This document shows, piece after piece, positions 23,174 to 31,419 of a stretch of 36,249 bases of DNA (position 1 is its first letter; each line of letters begins with the position of its first letter). This stretch comes from Deltaproteobacteria bacterium (GTDB lineage Bacteria; Myxococcota_A; Polyangia; Haliangiales; Haliangiaceae): assembly GCA_013812655.1 (NCBI GenBank), contig JACCTC010000277.1, positions 1 to 36,249 of the forward strand, written 5' to 3'. Made by a program: the position numbers and the translations under genes. The notes beneath the pieces are model-generated. The model saw only the letters and a list, made by a program, of their open reading frames with translations. It made no database searches and was not told where the DNA came from.

Positions 23174-23668
23174 CTACGCGGTATGAGCGTCGAGATACGC
23201 TTGCAGCCGCTCGATCGTCAGCAACCCGACCGGCTCGCCGTGATCGACGACCAACGCGACGCTATGAGGTAGCGCGCGCAGCTGTGCGAGCACGTCTGCG
23301 AGGGAATCTGAGGGCGTGACCGTGACCACATCGTGCCGTGGCGCCTCGGAGATGCACGCGTGCGGTCCATTGCGCTCGAGGCCGAGCGCCACGTCATCAC
23401 GCGTCACGACGCCGACCGGCATCCCGTGATCGACGACAGGAAGCTGCGCATTGCGACCGGCGACCATCAGCAGCGCGACATCCTCGAGGGGCTGCTGAGG
23501 GGAGACGGTCTCGAGTCGGGTCAGCATCGCAGCACTCACGGGGATGGTCGCGAGCGTTGGATAGCCCAGCGAGCGAGCCATCGTTGTGAGCTTGCGGATG
23601 GCAGAGCTCGTGAGCTGACCAAGCGTACGGCGCAGCAAGCTGCCGTGCCTTCGATCGTCCGGTTGCAT
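23174..23668 (-). CDS. CBS-domain pair protein
   Basis: The 164-residue product contains two CBS motifs: about residues 42-100 (IPVSAAM, VSPQQPLEDVALLMVAGRNA, LPVVDHGMPVGVVTRDDV) and 105-160 (TVTPSDSLADVLAQLRAL, VALVVDHGEPVGLLTIERL). Such pairs bind adenine nucleotides or similar ligands and regulate partners. No other domain is present. The start at ATG 23668 is uncertain: the first 30 residues are not CBS-like and ATG 23581 would also give a complete domain pair. It is convergent with tolB, 4 nt apart. The target is unknown; no neighbour is an obvious client. Confidence 0.85.
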   Translation of the reverse strand: MQPDDRRHGSLLRRTLGQLTSSAIRKLTTMARSLGYPTLATIPVSAAMLTRLETVSPQQPLEDVALLMVAGRNAQLPVVDHGMPVGVVTRDDVALGLERNGPHACISEAPRHDVVTVTPSDSLADVLAQLRALPHSVALVVDHGEPVGLLTIERLQAYLDAHTA

Positions 23669-23896
23669 GGTTAGAGAGTTTGCACCTCACATGCCATGCG
23701 ACACGGGGCAGCCCCGCACACTGCGGAGACACCACCGCTCGGCCCCGTCGCGCTGAAACCTACACGTCCGTATACGCAGCCTCGACTGGTCGTGTAGATC
23801 GACGACGATCGGGCGAGAACCTCACCGTGCGGCGTGTCGGAGCCGCACGAATACGACAGGCTCCTAGCTGGATCGCTTCGTGCTCGAGGATCCAGC

Positions 23897-24400
23897 ATGC
23901 CCGCTCCGTTTCCCCACCAGTACAGCGCCACGATCAGCCGCACGTTCTCGTCGCGCGCCCGGGTCGAGGCGCCACCGCGTGCGCCCCTTCATGGTGGGCC
24001 GAGCAGTGAATTCGATGGTGATGCCGCGTCGTGGTCGCCCGAGCACCTGATGCTGTCCTCGCTGGGCACGTGCATGCTCACCACGTTCGAGGCGTTTGCC
24101 GCGCGTGACGAGATCGAGATCGCGAGCTGGAACGCGACCGTCAACGGAACGGTCGAGCGCACGCCCGAAGGTCTGATGTTCACCTCGATCGTGCTGTGTA
24201 TCGAGATGGCGATCAGCGGCAAGGTCCAGAACGTCGAGCGCACTCTCGAGGACGCGAAGGAGTACTGCCTCATCCTCAACTCGCTGCGGGTCCCGGTCGT
24301 GATCGAGACGCAGATCTCGACACCGGCCGGCTTGCTCGAGCTCGCGTCCATGGCCGATGGCAGTGGCGACCTCGATCGCGACCAGCCTCTCGCGAGCTGA
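23897..24400 (+). CDS. OsmC/Ohr-family peroxiredoxin-like protein
   Basis: The 167-residue product starts at ATG 23897, 7 nt after GAGG (23886-23889). It has the OsmC/Ohr fold signature: Cys59 in SSLGTCMLTTFEAF on the central helix and Cys124 in KEYCLILNSL. The two reactive cysteines of this family have nearly this spacing (Ohr about Cys60 and Cys124). The family reduces organic hydroperoxides with thiols in the cytoplasm. The N-terminal strand (PHQYSATISRTF) and SPEHLMLSSL fit the fold. The 228-nt region upstream (23669-23896) contains no convincing gene. Subfamily (OsmC, Ohr or YhfA-like) cannot be fixed by eye. Confidence 0.88.
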   Translation: MPAPFPHQYSATISRTFSSRARVEAPPRAPLHGGPSSEFDGDAASWSPEHLMLSSLGTCMLTTFEAFAARDEIEIASWNATVNGTVERTPEGLMFTSIVLCIEMAISGKVQNVERTLEDAKEYCLILNSLRVPVVIETQISTPAGLLELASMADGSGDLDRDQPLAS

Positions 24401-24437
24401 GCTCAGGTCAGCTCAGTCAGCTCGGGTCAGGTCAGGT
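24399..24437. repeat. Short imperfect direct repeat at convergent gene ends
   Basis: A run of GCTCAGGTCA, GCTCAGTCA and GCTCGGGTCA followed by GGTCAGG fills the gap between the OsmC gene and the convergent histidine kinase and runs over the latter's stop codon. It looks like slippage-prone sequence. No function is evident. Confidence 0.6.
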
Positions 24438-25934
24438 GGAGCGGGACAGGCCAGGCAGGACCACGAAGAACGCGGCCCCGTGGCCGGGCTTGCTTGTCGC
24501 CCAGACTCTCCCGCCATGACGCTGGACAATGCGATGCACGGTGGCGAGGCCGATGCCATCGCCGGGGAAAGCCGAGCTGTCGTGCAGGCGCTCGAATGGC
24601 GCGAACAGGCGATCGGCGTCACGCATGTCGAAGCCGACCCCGTTGTCGCGGATGAACAGCGCGGGGTCTCCATCGCTGTCGAGCACGCCGACCTCGAGCT
24701 GGACGGTGGCCTGCTGGGCGGAATACTTCCACGCGTTTCCGAGCAGGTTGGCGATCATCGCCTCGACCAGCACCGCGTCGCCGAAGCAACGGATCCCGGA
24801 CTCGATGACGATCTCGGCCGAGCGGCCGGGGTCACCGCGGCGGAGCTCGGCGACACACGCCGTCGCCATTGCCGAGAGATCGACGGGCACGAGCTTTAGC
24901 GGCGCCCGCCCGACGCGCGCGAGGCTCAACAGGTTCTCGACGAGCTTCGTCATGTGCACGACAGAACGCTGGATGTGGCTGAGGCGCTCGGAGATCTTGA
25001 GCGGTAGCTGAGACGACTCGCGCATCAACAGATCCGCGCTCATCTGCATGACCGCGAGGGGCGCCCGTAGGTCGTGGCTGACCATCGCGTTGAACGCCTC
25101 GAGATCGCGCACCGACTGCTCGATCACCCGCGTGCGCTCGGCAACTCGCTTCTCGAGCTCGCTGTTGAGCTGATGAACCGCCTCCTCCGCGAGCTTCTGG
25201 TCGGTGATGTCCTGGCAGACGCCGACGAGCCGGACCAGCGTGCCGGCGTCGTCGAGGACAGGATGCGCCCACGTGTGAAGGTGACGGATCGAGCCATCCG
25301 GTCGAAAGATCCGCTCGTCGTGCGAGTACGGGATGTGCTCGTGGAAGACGCGGTTCGTGGCCTCGACGACCCGTGCGCGATCATCCGGGTGGACCATCGT
25401 CAGGTATGCCTCGTAGCTCGGCGTGTATGTCTCGGGCGTCAGCCCATAGATCCGGTAGAGCTCCTGCGACCATGTCGCCGTCGGCTCGCTGATGTCCCAC
25501 TCCCACGTGCCGAGGTGCGCGACACCCTGGGTGTCGACCATCAGTTGCTCGCTCCGGCGCAACCGTTCCGCGTCGCGCTTCAACTCGGTCGTATCGGTCG
25601 AGAGGCACAGGCACCCGACGACGCGCCCGGCGCTGCGCAGTGGGGTAATCGTGCACACGAACCACGCGCGAATCCCGCCCGGTCCGGCCTCACCCCATTC
25701 AAAGCGAGCCGCGCTCCCCCCCGCAAGCACGCGATCTGTGGCGGCGTCGAACGTGTCGCGGAACGCTCCGAGGAACAGCTCGCCCGCCGAGCTTGCGAGG
25801 ACCGCGTCAGGCCACCGCCCGCATGCGGCTGCGTTGAGATACTGGAGCCGGCGATCGGCGTCCGTCCCGAACACGACATCCGGGCTCGCGTCGAAGATCG
25901 ACGCCAGCACTGCGCGCTCCCCGAGCTCGCTCAC
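24432..25934 (-). CDS. PAS-PAS sensor histidine kinase (soluble)
   Basis: The product is about 500 residues from GTG 25934, with ATG 25985 in frame upstream; no ribosome-binding site favours either. There is no membrane helix. Two PAS domains are visible: about residues 5-125 (LASIFDASPDVVFGTDADRR) and about 135-255, the second with the PAS-PAC pattern LGTWEWDISEPTATWSQELY and GVCQDITDQKLAEEA. A coiled coil leads to the H-box MVSHDLRAPLAVMQMS, His287. The ATPase domain has NLLGNAWKYS (N-box), RDNGVGFDM (G1), FAPFERLH (F) and GDGIGLATV (G2). It is divergent from the receiver-PAS gene at 26003, its probable partner. The cue may be redox, light or small ligands, which is unknown. Confidence 0.9.
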   Translation of the reverse strand: MSELGERAVLASIFDASPDVVFGTDADRRLQYLNAAACGRWPDAVLASSAGELFLGAFRDTFDAATDRVLAGGSAARFEWGEAGPGGIRAWFVCTITPLRSAGRVVGCLCLSTDTTELKRDAERLRRSEQLMVDTQGVAHLGTWEWDISEPTATWSQELYRIYGLTPETYTPSYEAYLTMVHPDDRARVVEATNRVFHEHIPYSHDERIFRPDGSIRHLHTWAHPVLDDAGTLVRLVGVCQDITDQKLAEEAVHQLNSELEKRVAERTRVIEQSVRDLEAFNAMVSHDLRAPLAVMQMSADLLMRESSQLPLKISERLSHIQRSVVHMTKLVENLLSLARVGRAPLKLVPVDLSAMATACVAELRRGDPGRSAEIVIESGIRCFGDAVLVEAMIANLLGNAWKYSAQQATVQLEVGVLDSDGDPALFIRDNGVGFDMRDADRLFAPFERLHDSSAFPGDGIGLATVHRIVQRHGGRVWATSKPGHGAAFFVVLPGLSRST

Positions 25935-26002
25935 GGTTGCAGCATCGCATGTCCACGTGACAACCGGCGGGTGCCGTGCTTGCATCAACTGCTGGAGAAC
26001 CC

Positions 26003-26890
26003 GTGTTGCGCAAACCGACAATCCTCGCGGTCGACGATACTCCCGCCAACCTCGTAGCGCTCGAGGCCGTGCTCGATCGCGACTTCACGTTGCTGTTCGC
26101 GCGCTCCGGACCGGAAGCCGTTGCCCTGATGCAACAGCCACACGATGTCGACGTGATCCTCATGGACCTCCAGATGCCGGGCATGGACGGCTTCGAAGCA
26201 GCTGCGCTGATCAAGAAGCTGCCCGGTTGCGAGGATGTGCCGATCGTGTTCATCACGGCCGTCTACCGCGAAGACCCGCACGTCAAGCGTGGGTACGAAG
26301 CTGGCGGCGTCGACTACTTCAGTAAGCCGTTCGATCCGGACCTGCTGCGCCTCAAGATGGGCATCTACGCCTCGTTCCGCCAGAAGGCCTCGGTGCTGAA
26401 GGAGCGCGAGCGCCAGATCAAGGAGACCGAGGAGCTGCTCAAGGCGGGCCGCAAGCTCGCTGGCCTGCTCGAGAGCCTACCGGTCGGTGTCCTCATCGCC
26501 GATGGCCAGGGACGGATCTGCCAGGCCAACGAGGCGGTCTCGCGGATCTGCAAGTCCGTCGAGCTGATCCAGAACGACGAGTACGGCACGATGCTCGGCT
26601 GGTGGGGTCACAGCGGGCAAAGCCTCAAGACGCCCGACGGTCCGCTCGCCGGTGCCCTGCAAGGTGAGAGCTGCCACAACGAGGTGCGCGAGATCCGTTG
26701 CGTCGACGGAACGACGAAGGCGGTGTTGATGTCGGCGTCGCCGTTGATGGGACTCGATCACCAGATCGCGGGTGCCGTCATCGTGATCCAGGACGTCAGC
26801 GAGCCGAAGCGGATCCAGGGCGAGCTCGAGGATCGGATCGCGCGGCTCGTGTCACTCGGCCTCGAGCTCGAGCAGAGCGCCCGGGACTGA
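26003..26890 (+). CDS. Response-regulator receiver fused to a PAS domain
   Basis: The 295-residue product starts at GTG 26003, 5 nt after GGAG (25994-25997). Residues 5-125 form a receiver: acidic pair in ILAVDDTPANL, phospho-acceptor Asp55 in VILMDLQMPGMDG, and the Lys in FSKPFDP. A coiled coil at about 128-160 (VLKERERQIKETEELLKAG) links to a PAS domain at about 160-280 (LESLPVGVLIADGQGRICQA, VIVIQDVSEPKR). No output domain such as kinase, GGDEF or helix-turn-helix follows, so it presumably passes the signal to another protein through the PAS domain or coiled coil. It is divergent from the PAS kinase and likely its partner. Confidence 0.88.
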   Translation: MLRKPTILAVDDTPANLVALEAVLDRDFTLLFARSGPEAVALMQQPHDVDVILMDLQMPGMDGFEAAALIKKLPGCEDVPIVFITAVYREDPHVKRGYEAGGVDYFSKPFDPDLLRLKMGIYASFRQKASVLKERERQIKETEELLKAGRKLAGLLESLPVGVLIADGQGRICQANEAVSRICKSVELIQNDEYGTMLGWWGHSGQSLKTPDGPLAGALQGESCHNEVREIRCVDGTTKAVLMSASPLMGLDHQIAGAVIVIQDVSEPKRIQGELEDRIARLVSLGLELEQSARD

Positions 26891-26904
26891 GTACAAGCTC
26901 CCGG

Positions 26905-28680
26905 TCACGCGCGCTTCTGGATGCCATCGAACGCGACGACGCTCGAGTTGCTGAGGCCCGCCGCGTTGGCCTCGTCTGTATCGAGGTGCAGATCGAGCGT
27001 GAACGCATCGTTGACGCGGACGAGCACGTCACCCATGGTCAGCTCCCGATCGCCTTCAGCGCGGATCCGGATGACGTCCTTGTCGCCGACGCCGAACGCA
27101 CGGGCCTCGGTCGGGTGCATGTGGACGTGCCGCATCGCCATGATCACGCCGCTTCCGATCGTGACGTCGCCCGCCGGGCCGCGGAGCTTGAGCCCGGGCG
27201 TGCCGTGGAGCTGGCCGGACTCGCGCAGCGGGGGATCGACGCCGAGCTGCAGGGCGTCGGTTCGCGACACCTCGATCTGCGTGGCCTTGCGGAGCGGGTT
27301 GATGATCGCGACGCTGCGGATCTCGCCCTTGGGTCCGATCAGATCGACGGTCTCGCGCGTCACGAACTGGCCGGGCTGCGTGACGTCTCGCCGGCGGCTC
27401 AGCTCGTAGCCCGCACCGAACAGCGCGTCGCAATCAGCACGCGAGAGGTGGACGTGCCGCACCGAGACCCCAACCGGAATCGGCTTGCTGTGGACGCTGC
27501 GCATCGCGGCCGTGGGACCGACGAGCCGCCGCACGACGTCGCGCGCGATCATGCGCTCCTCGTCGGTGGTGACCACGAGCACGCGCGCGCCGGCGTGGCG
27601 CGTGGCGACGTCGACGATGCCGCCAGCCTCGGCTGGCCGTCGCGTCCGATTGGCCTCTGGGTCGAGATCGACGCCCAGGAAGTTCATCCGCTCGCACACC
27701 CGCTCGCGCACCATGGCCGAGTTTTCGCCGATGCCGCCGGTGAACACGATCGCGTCGATGCCGCCGAGCTCGGCCGCGTATGCGCCGATGTACTTGCGGA
27801 TCCGGCGCACGAAGATGTCGACGGCGAGCCGCGCACGGACCTCGCCACGCTCGGCGGCCGCCTGGACGTCGCGGAAGTCGGCGCCGATGCCCGAGATGCC
27901 CGCGAGCCCTGATTGCTTGTTCAGCAGCTGCTCGACCTCCAGCACGCTGACGCCCTGCCGGATCATCGCGAGCGGCACCGACGGATCGAGGTCGCCGCAC
28001 CGCGTGCCCATCACGAGTCCCTCGAGCGGTGTCATGCCCATCGACGTGTCGATCGAGATGCCTCCTTCGATCGCCGCGATACTCGCGCCACCGCCGAGGT
28101 GACAGGTGACAAGCCGGAGCCGCGCGAGATCGGTGCCCAGGTACTCGGCTGCCGACTGCGCCATGAACTGGTGACTGGGACCGTGGAAGCCGTACCGCCG
28201 GATCCCGCGCTCGAGGTACAGCTCGTACGGCAGGCCGTAGACGTACGAGTCCTCCGGCATGCCGGCGTGAAACGCGGTGTCGAACACGGCGACGTGCGGG
28301 ATGTCGCCGAACGCCTCGCGCGCCGCTCGGATGCCGAGCAGATTTGCCGGATTGTGGAGCGGCGCGAACACGGCGCACTCCTCGATGATCGCCTCGGCAG
28401 CGATGTCGACGAGCGTTGGCGCGATCAGGCGCTCGCCGCCGTGCACGACGCGGTGACCGATCGCGTCGATCTTGAGCCCGGCGAGCACGTCGGCGACGAC
28501 GCGTAGCGCCGCGCTGACGTCGAGCGCCGCGACGGGCGTCTCCTTGCCGGCGCGCACGTGGACCGCGGCCGCGGTGCCCATGCGCTCGATGCGGCCCCGC
28601 GCGAGGCTCGCCTCGATGTCCATGTCGTAGACGTCGTACTTCAGCGAGGTCGATCCGGCGTTGATCACGAGGACGTTCAT
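26905..28680 (-). CDS. Fused acetate kinase and PduL-type phosphotransacylase
   Basis: This single 591-residue frame carries two enzymes. Residues 1 to about 395 are acetate kinase: NAGSTSLKYDVYDM at the start, GHRVVHGGE, FDTAFHAGMP, GFHGPSHQF, LGGGASIAAIEGG, GTRCGDLDP and FTGGIGENS. From about residue 398 a PduL-type phosphotransacylase begins: IPVGVSVRHVHLSRADCDAL, later RHVHMHPTEARAFGV, the His clusters that bind zinc in PduL. The fused protein should convert acetyl-CoA and phosphate to acetyl phosphate and then make ATP and acetate (or the reverse). PduL is not related to classical Pta. The junction has no stop or frameshift. The start is ATG 28680, with a weak ribosome-binding site. The region upstream on the same strand is a damaged PRPP-synthase-like gene. 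Confidence 0.93.
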   Translation of the reverse strand: MNVLVINAGSTSLKYDVYDMDIEASLARGRIERMGTAAAVHVRAGKETPVAALDVSAALRVVADVLAGLKIDAIGHRVVHGGERLIAPTLVDIAAEAIIEECAVFAPLHNPANLLGIRAAREAFGDIPHVAVFDTAFHAGMPEDSYVYGLPYELYLERGIRRYGFHGPSHQFMAQSAAEYLGTDLARLRLVTCHLGGGASIAAIEGGISIDTSMGMTPLEGLVMGTRCGDLDPSVPLAMIRQGVSVLEVEQLLNKQSGLAGISGIGADFRDVQAAAERGEVRARLAVDIFVRRIRKYIGAYAAELGGIDAIVFTGGIGENSAMVRERVCERMNFLGVDLDPEANRTRRPAEAGGIVDVATRHAGARVLVVTTDEERMIARDVVRRLVGPTAAMRSVHSKPIPVGVSVRHVHLSRADCDALFGAGYELSRRRDVTQPGQFVTRETVDLIGPKGEIRSVAIINPLRKATQIEVSRTDALQLGVDPPLRESGQLHGTPGLKLRGPAGDVTIGSGVIMAMRHVHMHPTEARAFGVGDKDVIRIRAEGDRELTMGDVLVRVNDAFTLDLHLDTDEANAAGLSNSSVVAFDGIQKRA

Positions 28681-28724
28681 GGTTGCGGTTGTACCGCGAC
28701 CCGGCCGCCTGCTGCGCGTCGCCG

Positions 28725-29316
28725 CTACAGCCGCTGGCGAACTGCGTGGGCGAGCGAATCGGCGACGCAGATCCGGTTCGACGCGTGCAGGATCGTGTCG
28801 CACGTGACGATGCCCGTCGCGCCGGCGGCGACGAGCTCCTCGTGCACGGCATCCGCGAACACCGCGTGGATCGCGACGCACATCGGGGGCGCGCTGCCAG
28901 CGGCGCGGAGCTGGCGCGTCGCCTCGACCATCGTGCGACCGGTCGACACGATGTCGTCGATGACGACCGGCGTGTGGTCACCGAGGAGATCGACCGCGCG
29001 CTCCGGTGACGACACCGGCGCGAAGTACTGCTGGGTCACACCCTCGCCAGGGTTGAAGCGACTGTTCTGACGCATGTACGCGAGGTACGGCGCGACCTGC
29101 GAGCGCCGAGGTCACGCGCGGTGCCCGTGAGGAAGTTGTCGGCGTGCAGGTTCCCGACGATCACGGCGGTGTCGGCGATGCGATCGAGCGGGATCTGACG
29201 TAGAGTTCGCCATCGGGAAATTGCCGGATCTCCGGATGGACGTCCGTGACCCCGAGACGAATTCCGAGCCGCTCTGCATGGGCTTCGCTGCCCGGCACGG
29301 CGATGAGAACAGGCAC
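28725..29316 (-). pseudogene. PRPP-synthase-like phosphoribosyltransferase, two frameshifts
   Basis: Joined across three frames, the sequence reads as a PRPP synthetase family protein. The first part, from GTG 29316, runs MPVLIAVPGSEAHAERLG to FPDGELYVR. The frame then changes near 29200, continuing IPLDRIADTAVIVGNLHADN to ARDLGA. It changes again near 29105, continuing QVAPYLAYMRQNSRFNPGEG to the end. Each change equals one lost base (modulo three), and a few residues appear missing near the second. The PRPP-binding loop VVIDDIVSTGRTM survives in the last part (ATG 29075 onward, 116 residues). Either the gene is decaying or the assembly has errors. It lies 44 nt upstream of the acetate kinase fusion on the same strand. 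Confidence 0.8.
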
Positions 29317-29319
29317 ATG

Positions 29320-29624
29320 AGCATGCTACCCGAGCCGGTCGTGACCCGGAGTCGTCGAACATCGTGCCGCGATTACGCTCCCGTGCAGGAACCGAGGTCG
29401 CGTCGGCGGATCGGCCACATCAGACGAATGCCACGTCCTGGTCGAACAGCTTTTTCGATCCGATTCACGATTACAGCGTCAGCATAGACGCGGACAATAC
29501 TGAAACTTAACGTGCTCGTGATTTGCAATCGCCATCGAGCTTTGGCATTGATGCTCCGCTTGGAACGAGGACAGGTTGTCGTGACGAGATCGGGGACAGG
29601 TGGTAGGGACGAAAGGTGGTGGTC
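29320..29624. other. Gene-free region of lower GC content
   Basis: This stretch of about 305 nt lies between the phosphoribosyltransferase pseudogene and the LuxR-type gene, which are divergent. Its second half (about 29440-29570) is visibly richer in A and T than the surrounding genes and probably holds promoters for both sides. I found no convincing promoter hexamers, RNA structure or open frame with protein-like sequence. Confidence 0.5.
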
Positions 29625-30296
29625 ATGCAGTGCAACGAGGCTTTGGTGGGGAGGACGTCGCATGTCCGGGTCATGCTCGTCGACGAGCATCCTGCATTCA
29701 GGCTCGGTGTCCGGACGTTACTCGAGCATGATGCCGCCCTCTCGGTGACCGCGGATGTCGGGAGCCAGCGCGAGGCCATGGCGTACGCGCGCGAGCCTGC
29801 ATTCGATCTCGCGATCGTGGGCGAGCTGACGCCCGTCGTCGCAGGCGTCGAGCTGACCGTAGGTCTCCGCGAGCACTGGCCCGCTTGCAAGATCCTGGGC
29901 CTCACCGCCACCGAGGAGCCTATTCAGATCGCGGCGCTGCTGCGCGCCGGCGCCTCGGGTGTCGCGCTGAAGGCGCAAGCGCTCGGCGAGATCCATGAGG
30001 CGGTGACCGCGGTCTCGCAAGGCACGCGATACCTCCCGCCCTCCGTGTCAGTAGAGCGCATCGACCAGCTGCTGGCGCACGACGCGAACCGACGGCTCGA
30101 GCGGCTGACCACGCGCGAGCGCGAGGTGTTCGAGCTCCTCGTCGCCGGCCATTCCAACGAGAGCATCGCCAGCAAGCTGTTCATCGCCCGGCGCACGGTC
30201 GAGACGCATCGCCAGCACATCACGCGCAAGCTCGAGGTCCACTCGCTACTCGAGCTGGTGCGACTCGCGGTGCGCCACGGGATCACGCGTATTTGA
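29625..30296 (+). CDS. LuxR/NarL-type regulator with a degenerate receiver
   Basis: The 223-residue product starts at ATG 29625, 8 nt after AAGG (29613-29616); GTG 29616 is in frame. The N-terminal 125 residues have the receiver fold: VRVMLVDEHPAFRLGVRTLL, LGLTATEEP and GVALKAQ. The position of the phospho-acceptor Asp is Gly66 (FDLAIVGELTP), so classical phosphorylation is not expected. The C-terminal LuxR helix-turn-helix is intact: LTTREREVFELLVAGHSNES, then SKLFIARRTVETHRQHITRK. It should bind DNA, perhaps constitutively or controlled by ligand or protein contact. A soluble histidine kinase follows 205 nt downstream, which is odd for a receiver without Asp. Confidence 0.88.
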   Translation: MQCNEALVGRTSHVRVMLVDEHPAFRLGVRTLLEHDAALSVTADVGSQREAMAYAREPAFDLAIVGELTPVVAGVELTVGLREHWPACKILGLTATEEPIQIAALLRAGASGVALKAQALGEIHEAVTAVSQGTRYLPPSVSVERIDQLLAHDANRRLERLTTREREVFELLVAGHSNESIASKLFIARRTVETHRQHITRKLEVHSLLELVRLAVRHGITRI

Positions 30297-30509
30297 TCTT
30301 CTGTTCGCAGAACTCGTAAGCGAGAGCACGTGTTCTGGTGACTCGATCCTCTCATCGTATAACTTTCCATCGAAGCAAGTTTTGCACTCCGAATCTCCGT
30401 CGAAGAACACGTAGAACTGCGGATAGCCGTGCTCGCGGTTGCCCGGTAAACAGAAGGTCAGAGTCGTTGCGGGGGCAGTGGTGACGAACAGGAGCACAAC
30501 GATGAGCAC
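30246..30509 (-). CDS. Possible small secreted Cys-containing protein
   Basis: On the minus strand a frame of 87 codons starts at GTG 30509 with a hydrophobic leader (MLIVVLLFVTTAPATT) that resembles a short signal peptide, followed by a Cys-containing segment (LTFCLPGN, YVFFDGDSECKTCFDGKLYD). It fills most of the gap between the LuxR gene and the histidine kinase and overlaps both ends of them. Codon third positions are GC-rich in the first 40 codons but not later. There is no clear ribosome-binding site. It could be a remnant or chance; listed because the leader is convincing. Confidence 0.25.
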   Translation of the reverse strand: MLIVVLLFVTTAPATTLTFCLPGNREHGYPQFYVFFDGDSECKTCFDGKLYDERIESPEHVLSLTSSANRRSNTRDPVAHRESHQLE

Positions 30510-31419
30510 GATCGAGCGCCATCACGGACAACCGTTCACCTACGACTACGACTTCGAGACGCCCGAGCCTGGAGAGCTCGCGCGAGGTTCGTTCGCGCAC
30601 GGCACCGGCACACTCGAGCTGACGCCAGCCGGCCAGGCGATGCTGTTCGACTCGGATCCCGAGATGGCCGAGACCGGACGCTACACGTCCGTCCCCGGTG
30701 ACGACGAACCTGCCCGGCTCGATGACTCGGGGGCGCGCAGCGTGCGCGTCGAGGACGTCGCGGAGATCGCGCACGATCTGAGAAGCCCGCTGTCGACGAT
30801 CGCGCTCGAGGTATCGACGATCCAGGAGAGCCTGACGGGCGAAGGAAACATCGAGGTCCGGAGCTCGCTCACGCGCGTCGAACGCAACATCGCAGCGCTC
30901 GATCACATGGTTCACGACCTGCTGGACCTCGCGTCGATCGACGGCCACCGTCTACGCATCCGCCGCAAGCCCGTCGACATCGCGGTGCTGGTCGTCGAGC
31001 TCGCCGAACGCGTCATCGCGACGCGTGATCGCAAACGCATCTTCCTCGACATCGCGGCGCCGATCGTGCTCCTCGCGGACGGTCCGCGGATCGAGCGCGT
31101 CGTCGCGAACTTGATCCAGAACGCGTTCAAGTACGCGCCGCGCGGCTCGCCGGTGACCGTGCAGCTCGAAGACCTCGGAGATCGCGCGCGGGTGTCGGTG
31201 ATCGACGAGGGTCCAGGCCTCAGCCGCGAGGAAGCTCGCTTCATCTTCGACAAGTTCCGTCGCACGCGTTCGGCAACCGTCGTCGATGGCAACGGGCTCG
31301 GCCTCTTCATCAGCAGCAAGATCGTCGAGGCCCACGGCGGCCGCATCGGCGTGTCGAGCACCTTGGGCAAGGGCTCGCGCTTCTACTTCGAGCTCCCGAT
31401 CGGGCCGGATCGCTTCTAG
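30502..31419 (+). CDS. Soluble sensor histidine kinase
   Basis: The 305-residue kinase starts at ATG 30502, 7 nt after AGGAG (30490-30494). There is no membrane helix. The first 85 residues are polar, acidic and without a recognisable sensor domain. The H-box is VAEIAHDLRSPLSTI with His91, followed by a dimerisation helix. The ATPase domain shows the N-box NLIQNAFKYAP, G1 VIDEGPGL, F-box FDKFRR and G2 GNGLGLFISSKI, ending in HGGRIGVSSTLGKGSRFYF. All catalytic motifs look intact. The neighbouring LuxR-type gene has no phospho-acceptor Asp, so its real target is probably elsewhere. Its last codon overlaps the stop of the convergent hydrolase gene (TAG and CTA share bases at 31416-31419). Confidence 0.9.
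   Translation: MSTIERHHGQPFTYDYDFETPEPGELARGSFAHGTGTLELTPAGQAMLFDSDPEMAETGRYTSVPGDDEPARLDDSGARSVRVEDVAEIAHDLRSPLSTIALEVSTIQESLTGEGNIEVRSSLTRVERNIAALDHMVHDLLDLASIDGHRLRIRRKPVDIAVLVVELAERVIATRDRKRIFLDIAAPIVLLADGPRIERVVANLIQNAFKYAPRGSPVTVQLEDLGDRARVSVIDEGPGLSREEARFIFDKFRRTRSATVVDGNGLGLFISSKIVEAHGGRIGVSSTLGKGSRFYFELPIGPDRF

Follow-up and report, generated by a model that had tools for sequence, protein, structure and literature searches.

A fused acetate kinase and PduL-type phosphotransacylase predicted to link acetyl-CoA to ATP formation in a Deltaproteobacteria bacterium

The closest described system is a group of multidomain proteins with the PduL domain (PF06130), which, in a passage of Erbilgin et al. 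2016 (PMC4784909), are said to be mostly annotated as acetate kinases and to lack encapsulation peptides; the passage adds that the fusion may aid channelling, and both the architecture and the channelling idea have been in print since then. For PduL itself, the same source in excerpt describes two zinc sites, one formed by His48, His50 and Glu109 and the other by His157, His159 and His204, with Arg103 contacting phosphate. As regards acetate kinases, the portion available of PMC4390882 presents Asn211 of the Methanosarcina enzyme MtACK as important for its rate: the Ala variant keeps 145 of 883 units and the Ser variant 4.4, Gly not being among the variants shown there. The ADENOSINE motif separates ATP-type kinases from the pyrophosphate-type kinase of Entamoeba (PMC5517563, in the excerpt available). 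The fusion is not mentioned in the available portions of PMC4207490, PMC10823632, PMC7646526 and PMC9209496.

The window analyzed here is the whole stretch of 36,249 nucleotides from a Deltaproteobacteria bacterium, and its features are collected in Table 1. Translation of the minus-strand frame 28680..26905 gave 591 codons with a single terminal stop and none internal; both domains lie within this uninterrupted frame, which makes the product an AckA-PduL fusion. The Pfam profiles scored more than 200 bits over their respective cut-offs, with 433 bits against 22 for Acetate_kinase (PF00871, residues 3-380) and 234 against 25 for PTAC (PF06130, residues 402-576); the NCBIfam models agreed, with 425 bits against a cut-off of 293 for ackA (TIGR00016) and 243 against 209 for phosphate propanoyltransferase (NF011652). 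The motifs VSVRHVHLS and HVHMHP start at residues 405 and 518, respectively. The first-pass annotation, which had read AckA followed by PduL in a single frame with these motifs, is borne out by the frame and by both profile sets.

Table 1. Features of the fusion locus, in positions of the window.
Feature	Position	Strand	Evidence
AckA-PduL fusion gene, 591 aa, ATG start, stop codon 26905-26907	26905..28680	-	translation, profile scores
Acetate kinase half, residues 3-380	27541..28674	-	PF00871 433 bits; alignment to 1g99/1tuu/2iir
Linker, residues ~384-401, in frame; 389-397 predicted disordered	27478..27531	-	alignment, predicted model
PduL phosphotransacylase half, residues 402-576	26953..27477	-	PF06130 234 bits; alignment to 5cuo
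Phosphoribosyltransferase/PRPP-synthetase-like C-terminal piece, 44 bp upstream of the fusion	28725..29075	-	PF00156 39 bits

Of 95 related genomes, at least 39, the study genome among them, have one match spanning both halves (G029, where the halves are two pieces on one contig, was left out of this count). So do at least 79 of the 282 genomes of a phylum sample, again with the study genome; for the latter count, a row had to start no later than position 154 of the 601-position model and reach at least position 546, and one of the counted rows has a stop inside. These frequencies make an assembly error unlikely. Four of the fusion-bearing assemblies of the phylum sample are listed with one contig (G256, G230, G100 and G169). 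A frameshift or assembly artefact at the AckA/PduL junction is rejected, given the open frame and the like architecture in many independent assemblies. In a collection limited to a single genome for each species, both halves were matched in 43 of the 80 best loci, and these belong to Myxococcota, Deltaproteobacteria, Nitrospirota and Alpha-, Beta- and Gammaproteobacteria; among them, L076 and L077 are broken in frame, a masked stretch interrupts L057, and the Syntrophus-labelled loci of the collection are metagenome bins. The idea that the fusion is rare is rejected by these counts and by its presence in several phyla. It had been asked at the outset whether it might be widespread and already characterized: the first part holds, and the architecture is in print together with the channelling idea, but no biochemical study of an AckA-PduL fusion was among the literature matches listed, in a search with subscription journals mostly outside its coverage.

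Among plasmids, 220 records matched, and in 4 of them the match covers 80% of the query or more. Public annotation can hide the fusion, which appears as "acetate/propionate family kinase" in the three annotated plasmid records examined; in a Sinorhizobium meliloti RU11/001 plasmid (L183), the fusion region is annotated as such a kinase plus a short PduL/EutD piece. In the kinase-domain tree (130 rows), fused and stand-alone sequences are split by one change with a branch support of 78, as obtained by a quick method with long-branch warnings, while in the PduL-domain tree (90 rows) the fused sequences are not on one side of a branch and the stand-alone PduLs need three changes; a single fusion event is allowed by the former tree and not shown by the latter. 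G001, which belongs to the same genus as the study genome, has no full fusion, and a divergent AckA-like match lies elsewhere in it. Its locus L136 is a PduL frame with a short N-terminal stretch resembling the first residues of AckA, and seems to be a fusion from which most of the AckA half has been lost.

The catalytic set of MtACK, which we take to be N7, R91, H123, D148, H180, R241 and E384, is matched in the study fusion by N7, R77, H109, D134, H166, R227 and E374, on alignment to solved structures. Conservation was followed across 78 distinct fusions, 45 with two domains, 30 with three and 3 cut at the start: N7 and K14 (76 fusions, 2 gaps) as well as R77 and H109 (77, 1 gap) occur without substitution, and D134, H138, H166 and E374 are kept in 78 of 78. 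Variation was seen at S10 (73; 2 Ile, 1 Arg), S12 (73; 3 Thr), R227 (77; 1 Met) and E319 (68; 6 Gln, 4 Ala); the study fusion itself retains all the listed residues, including these four. By alignment, V79, L108 and P218 correspond to the MtACK pocket residues Val93, Leu122 and Pro232, a match pointing to acetate as the main acid substrate, and G316-I317 correspond to Gly331-Ile332 of the ADENOSINE motif, which suggests ADP/ATP rather than pyrophosphate as the phosphate partner. A pyrophosphate-type kinase is not indicated, G316-I317 fitting the ATP-type motif.

In the PduL half, alignment to 5cuo placed the zinc-ligand equivalents at H409, H411 and E470 and at H518, H520 and H565, with R464 in the place of Arg103. 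H409, H411, R464, E470, H518 and H520 are kept in all 78 fusions and H565 in 77, the other having a gap there; the zinc-binding histidines, on which the initial reading depended, are intact, as all ligands are present in the study fusion and, but for that gap, across the 78. An AlphaFold2 model of the study fusion, built from 38 aligned sequences, had a mean pLDDT of 88.5 and a pTM of 0.69, with residues 389-397 and 543-545 below 50. By Foldseek, the kinase half matched 2iir (TMt 0.90), and the PduL half matched 5cuo (TMt 0.97, rmsd 0.9), as expected for a PduL fold. The prediction had been proposed as a check on the two halves, and both folds look sound, with high confidence; judging from sequence and model, both halves are full-length and complete-looking. 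The linker of about 18 residues is all that precedes the PduL domain after the kinase half.

The assembly (8.1 Mb, 508 contigs, 93.5% complete) carries the fusion on contig C222, and no second AckA or PduL domain was found in it, the one match to each being in the study fusion. Two matches to PTA_PTB were found: one, above the cut-off, lies in an NADP-malic enzyme, a type of protein with a C-terminal Pta domain that has been described as nonfunctional (PMC7646526, in the excerpt available), and the other is below the cut-off. No true Pta was found in the assembly above the PTA_PTB cut-off, and the PduL half is the only likely phosphotransacylase found there. Domains, folds and residues together make it very likely that the protein is a cytosolic bifunctional enzyme, whose PduL and AckA halves would convert acetyl-CoA, phosphate and ADP to acetate, ATP and CoA. 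At its two-zinc site, the C-terminal PduL half would convert acetyl-CoA and phosphate to acetyl phosphate, and the N-terminal AckA half would transfer the phosphate of acetyl phosphate to ADP, yielding ATP and acetate. The fusion would set a 1:1 ratio and keep the sites near each other, and acetyl phosphate would then tend to be consumed before diffusing off. Such an enzyme would provide a route from acetyl-CoA to ATP for a bacterium without a true Pta, a pathway that metabolic reconstructions searching pta alone would miss.

A response regulator with a PAS domain, on the opposite strand, ends 14 bases from the stop of the fusion; upstream come a PRPP-synthetase-like gene that appears broken, a LuxR-type response regulator and a histidine kinase, and on the far side a second histidine kinase, OsmC and a CBS-domain protein. 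On three-frame reading, the PRPP-synthetase-like gene (28725-29362, minus strand) appears broken by a frameshift, its apparent N-terminal part being in another frame; the stretch in question, upstream of the C-terminal piece, is presumed to resemble the N-terminal part of a PRPP synthetase. The called proteins of the window were searched by tblastn (E 1e-6) against 56 related loci, whose flanks are short in some cases: the OsmC, CBS, PRPP-synthetase-like and response-regulator proteins were matched in none of the 56 other fusion loci, and proteins 4, 5, 6, 9, 11 and 16 and the histidine kinases (22 and 27) in 1 to 5 each. In neighbor clustering of 44 loci, every family other than the fusion was limited to 7 loci or fewer, and a conserved operon with the neighbors of the study locus was found by neither comparison. 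The region 23174-31419, where two histidine kinases, two response regulators, OsmC and the CBS-domain protein surround the fusion, may at a guess be a stress or low-oxygen island. Elsewhere, one family occurs near the fusion in 5 of the 44 loci, all from Proteobacteria (L051, L052, L053, L070 and L073), and is presumably a FabI-like enoyl reductase; fabI and a DUF3141 gene flank the fusion on a Polaromonas plasmid (L182), and a phasin gene is near it on a Paracoccus plasmid.

A stronger form of the coupling would be true channelling, in which acetyl phosphate made at the PduL site would stay in the protein until it reaches the kinase site, and the response regulators would also be shielded from it. 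Two consecutive enzymes fused across several phyla, the proposal already in print (PMC4784909, in its short passage), and the four two-component proteins encoded within 2 kb (two response regulators, two histidine kinases) are all in its favor. However, the linker is predicted to be disordered, and the stretch from position 383 to 402 inclusive, 20 residues long in the group of the study fusion, ranges from 15 to 24 residues among the 78 fusions; this disorder, together with the variable length, suggests a tether rather than a fixed, rigid tunnel. In view of the pTM of the model and the low confidence of the linker, the predicted domain arrangement is tentative. As for shielding, neither response regulator was matched in the 56 other loci, some with short flanks, and the histidine kinases were matched in 4 and 5 of them. 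Channelling in this strict sense is regarded as unlikely.

The acetate kinase and phosphotransacylase steps are both reversible, and the bifunctional enzyme could also work toward activation of acetate. AMP-forming acetyl-CoA synthetase is the usual high-affinity acetate activator, and a full-length one (975 bits) is present in the assembly, which argues against a protein that operates mainly in reverse, from acetate to acetyl-CoA. That direction is consistent with the reversibility of both steps, as stated in the excerpt of PMC4784909, and with the lack of any PFL-like or phosphoketolase (XFP_N) match in the assembly, which also weighs against the forward reading in that neither family names a feeder; on balance, a mainly reverse role seems improbable.

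The reading as a complete bifunctional enzyme meets a difficulty in the PHOSPHATE2 motif, where the position of MtACK Asn211 is occupied by Gly197 in the study fusion, which thus lacks the Asn. Among 75 fusions, this position is Asn in 38, Gly in 17, Ser in 15 and His in 5, and among 51 stand-alone kinases Asn in 47, His in 2, Gly in 1 and Ser in 1; on these sequences, Asn is not strictly defining for acetate kinases. The kinase half is probably active, with an uncertain rate, and may be slow because Gly197 replaces Asn211. The altered position in 37 of 75 fusions, as well as the PduL frame of G001 with its apparent AckA relic, could indicate that one half is catalytically weak and serves chiefly as scaffold or regulator; however, the other checked residues of both halves are conserved in the study protein and nearly so across the 78 fusions, and such a role is considered very unlikely.

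Matches to microcompartment (BMC) proteins in the study genome lie on contigs C501, C82 and C425, away from the fusion on C222, which is not a microcompartment-encoded PduL. One of these loci, L179 (contig C501 of G000), comprises BMC-H, BMC-T, a EutN-type vertex protein and an aldehyde dehydrogenase, with no PduL match on the contig. It is extremely improbable that the fusion is the phosphotransacylase of this microcompartment: the fusion is the sole PduL match of the genome, a Haliangium ochraceum locus is among those lacking alcohol dehydrogenase and/or phosphotransacylase (PMC4207490, in the part available), and at least one fusion among the matches listed, that of G057 (contig C86), is about 13 kb from a BMC gene, but the study fusion is away from C501, co-occurrence with BMC genes is weak (28 of the 39 genomes with the fusion, 33 of the 56 without it; Fisher p 0.28), fused PduLs are described without encapsulation peptides (PMC4784909, in the same passage), and stand-alone PduLs are on a BMC-bearing contig in at least 7 of 12 cases, 8 of the 12 genomes holding a separate fusion as well. 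Because co-occurrence with BMC genes is weak, and the stand-alone PduLs are the ones often beside them, the fusion seems for the most part to be a cytosolic system of its own.

A variant of the fusion has a third domain: in 30 of the 78 proteins, a Crp-type, cyclic-nucleotide-binding-like domain precedes AckA-PduL in frame at the N-terminus (L039, L040, L041, L049, L050 and L072, the last from Magnetobacterium casense, are examples). Of these, 24 were called by motif, and a profile made from the 24 added 6; PF00027 scored 43-68 bits in all five three-domain proteins scanned, and a predicted structure of L039 (AlphaFold, mean pLDDT 80.8) matched structures of the Crp family and other cyclic-nucleotide-binding structures (ranks 46-50). 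The study fusion has no N-terminal PF00027 domain, its Pfam matches being AckA and PTAC alone. At what is presumably the canonical phosphate-binding Arg place of the cassette, known from the Crp family, the 26 readable cassettes (32 proteins examined) have Ala in 11, Thr in 8, Ser in 5, Val in 2 and Arg in none; in L020 and L135, an Arg is found one place earlier than usual. Nothing was found on a Crp-type or cyclic-nucleotide-binding domain fused to acetate kinase in the literature searched, which mostly excludes subscription journals; a paper on mycobacterial Crp acetylation came up instead. If the domain acts on the enzymes, the three-domain relatives would be a directly gated acetate switch. 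A tentative and somewhat doubtful view of the whole family would be that the fusions are a self-contained acetate-ATP module apart from microcompartments, perhaps of single origin and spread to several phyla, with the Crp-type subset as a switch gated by a ligand that is possibly not a cyclic nucleotide.

Compared with the multidomain proteins of Erbilgin et al. 2016 (PMC4784909), the study protein has the same fusion of PF06130 with acetate kinase; their short passage, where channelling is suggested, neither names a protein nor gives an assay of a fusion. The predicted overall reaction is the same as that of separate ackA and pta (or pduL) genes, but here it would be carried out by a single protein, in a genome in which no true Pta was found. 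With the PduL of Rhodopseudomonas palustris (5cuo), the C-terminal half shares the fold (rmsd 0.9), both zinc sites and the Arg103/R464 pair, whereas it is fused to a kinase and not encoded with microcompartment genes. Finally, the N-terminal half is like the AckA of Methanosarcina thermophila (1g99/1tuu) and of Thermotoga maritima (2iir) in fold and in the checked catalytic residues, and the study fusion differs from both in having Gly197 at the place of Asn211 and a PduL domain at its C-terminus.
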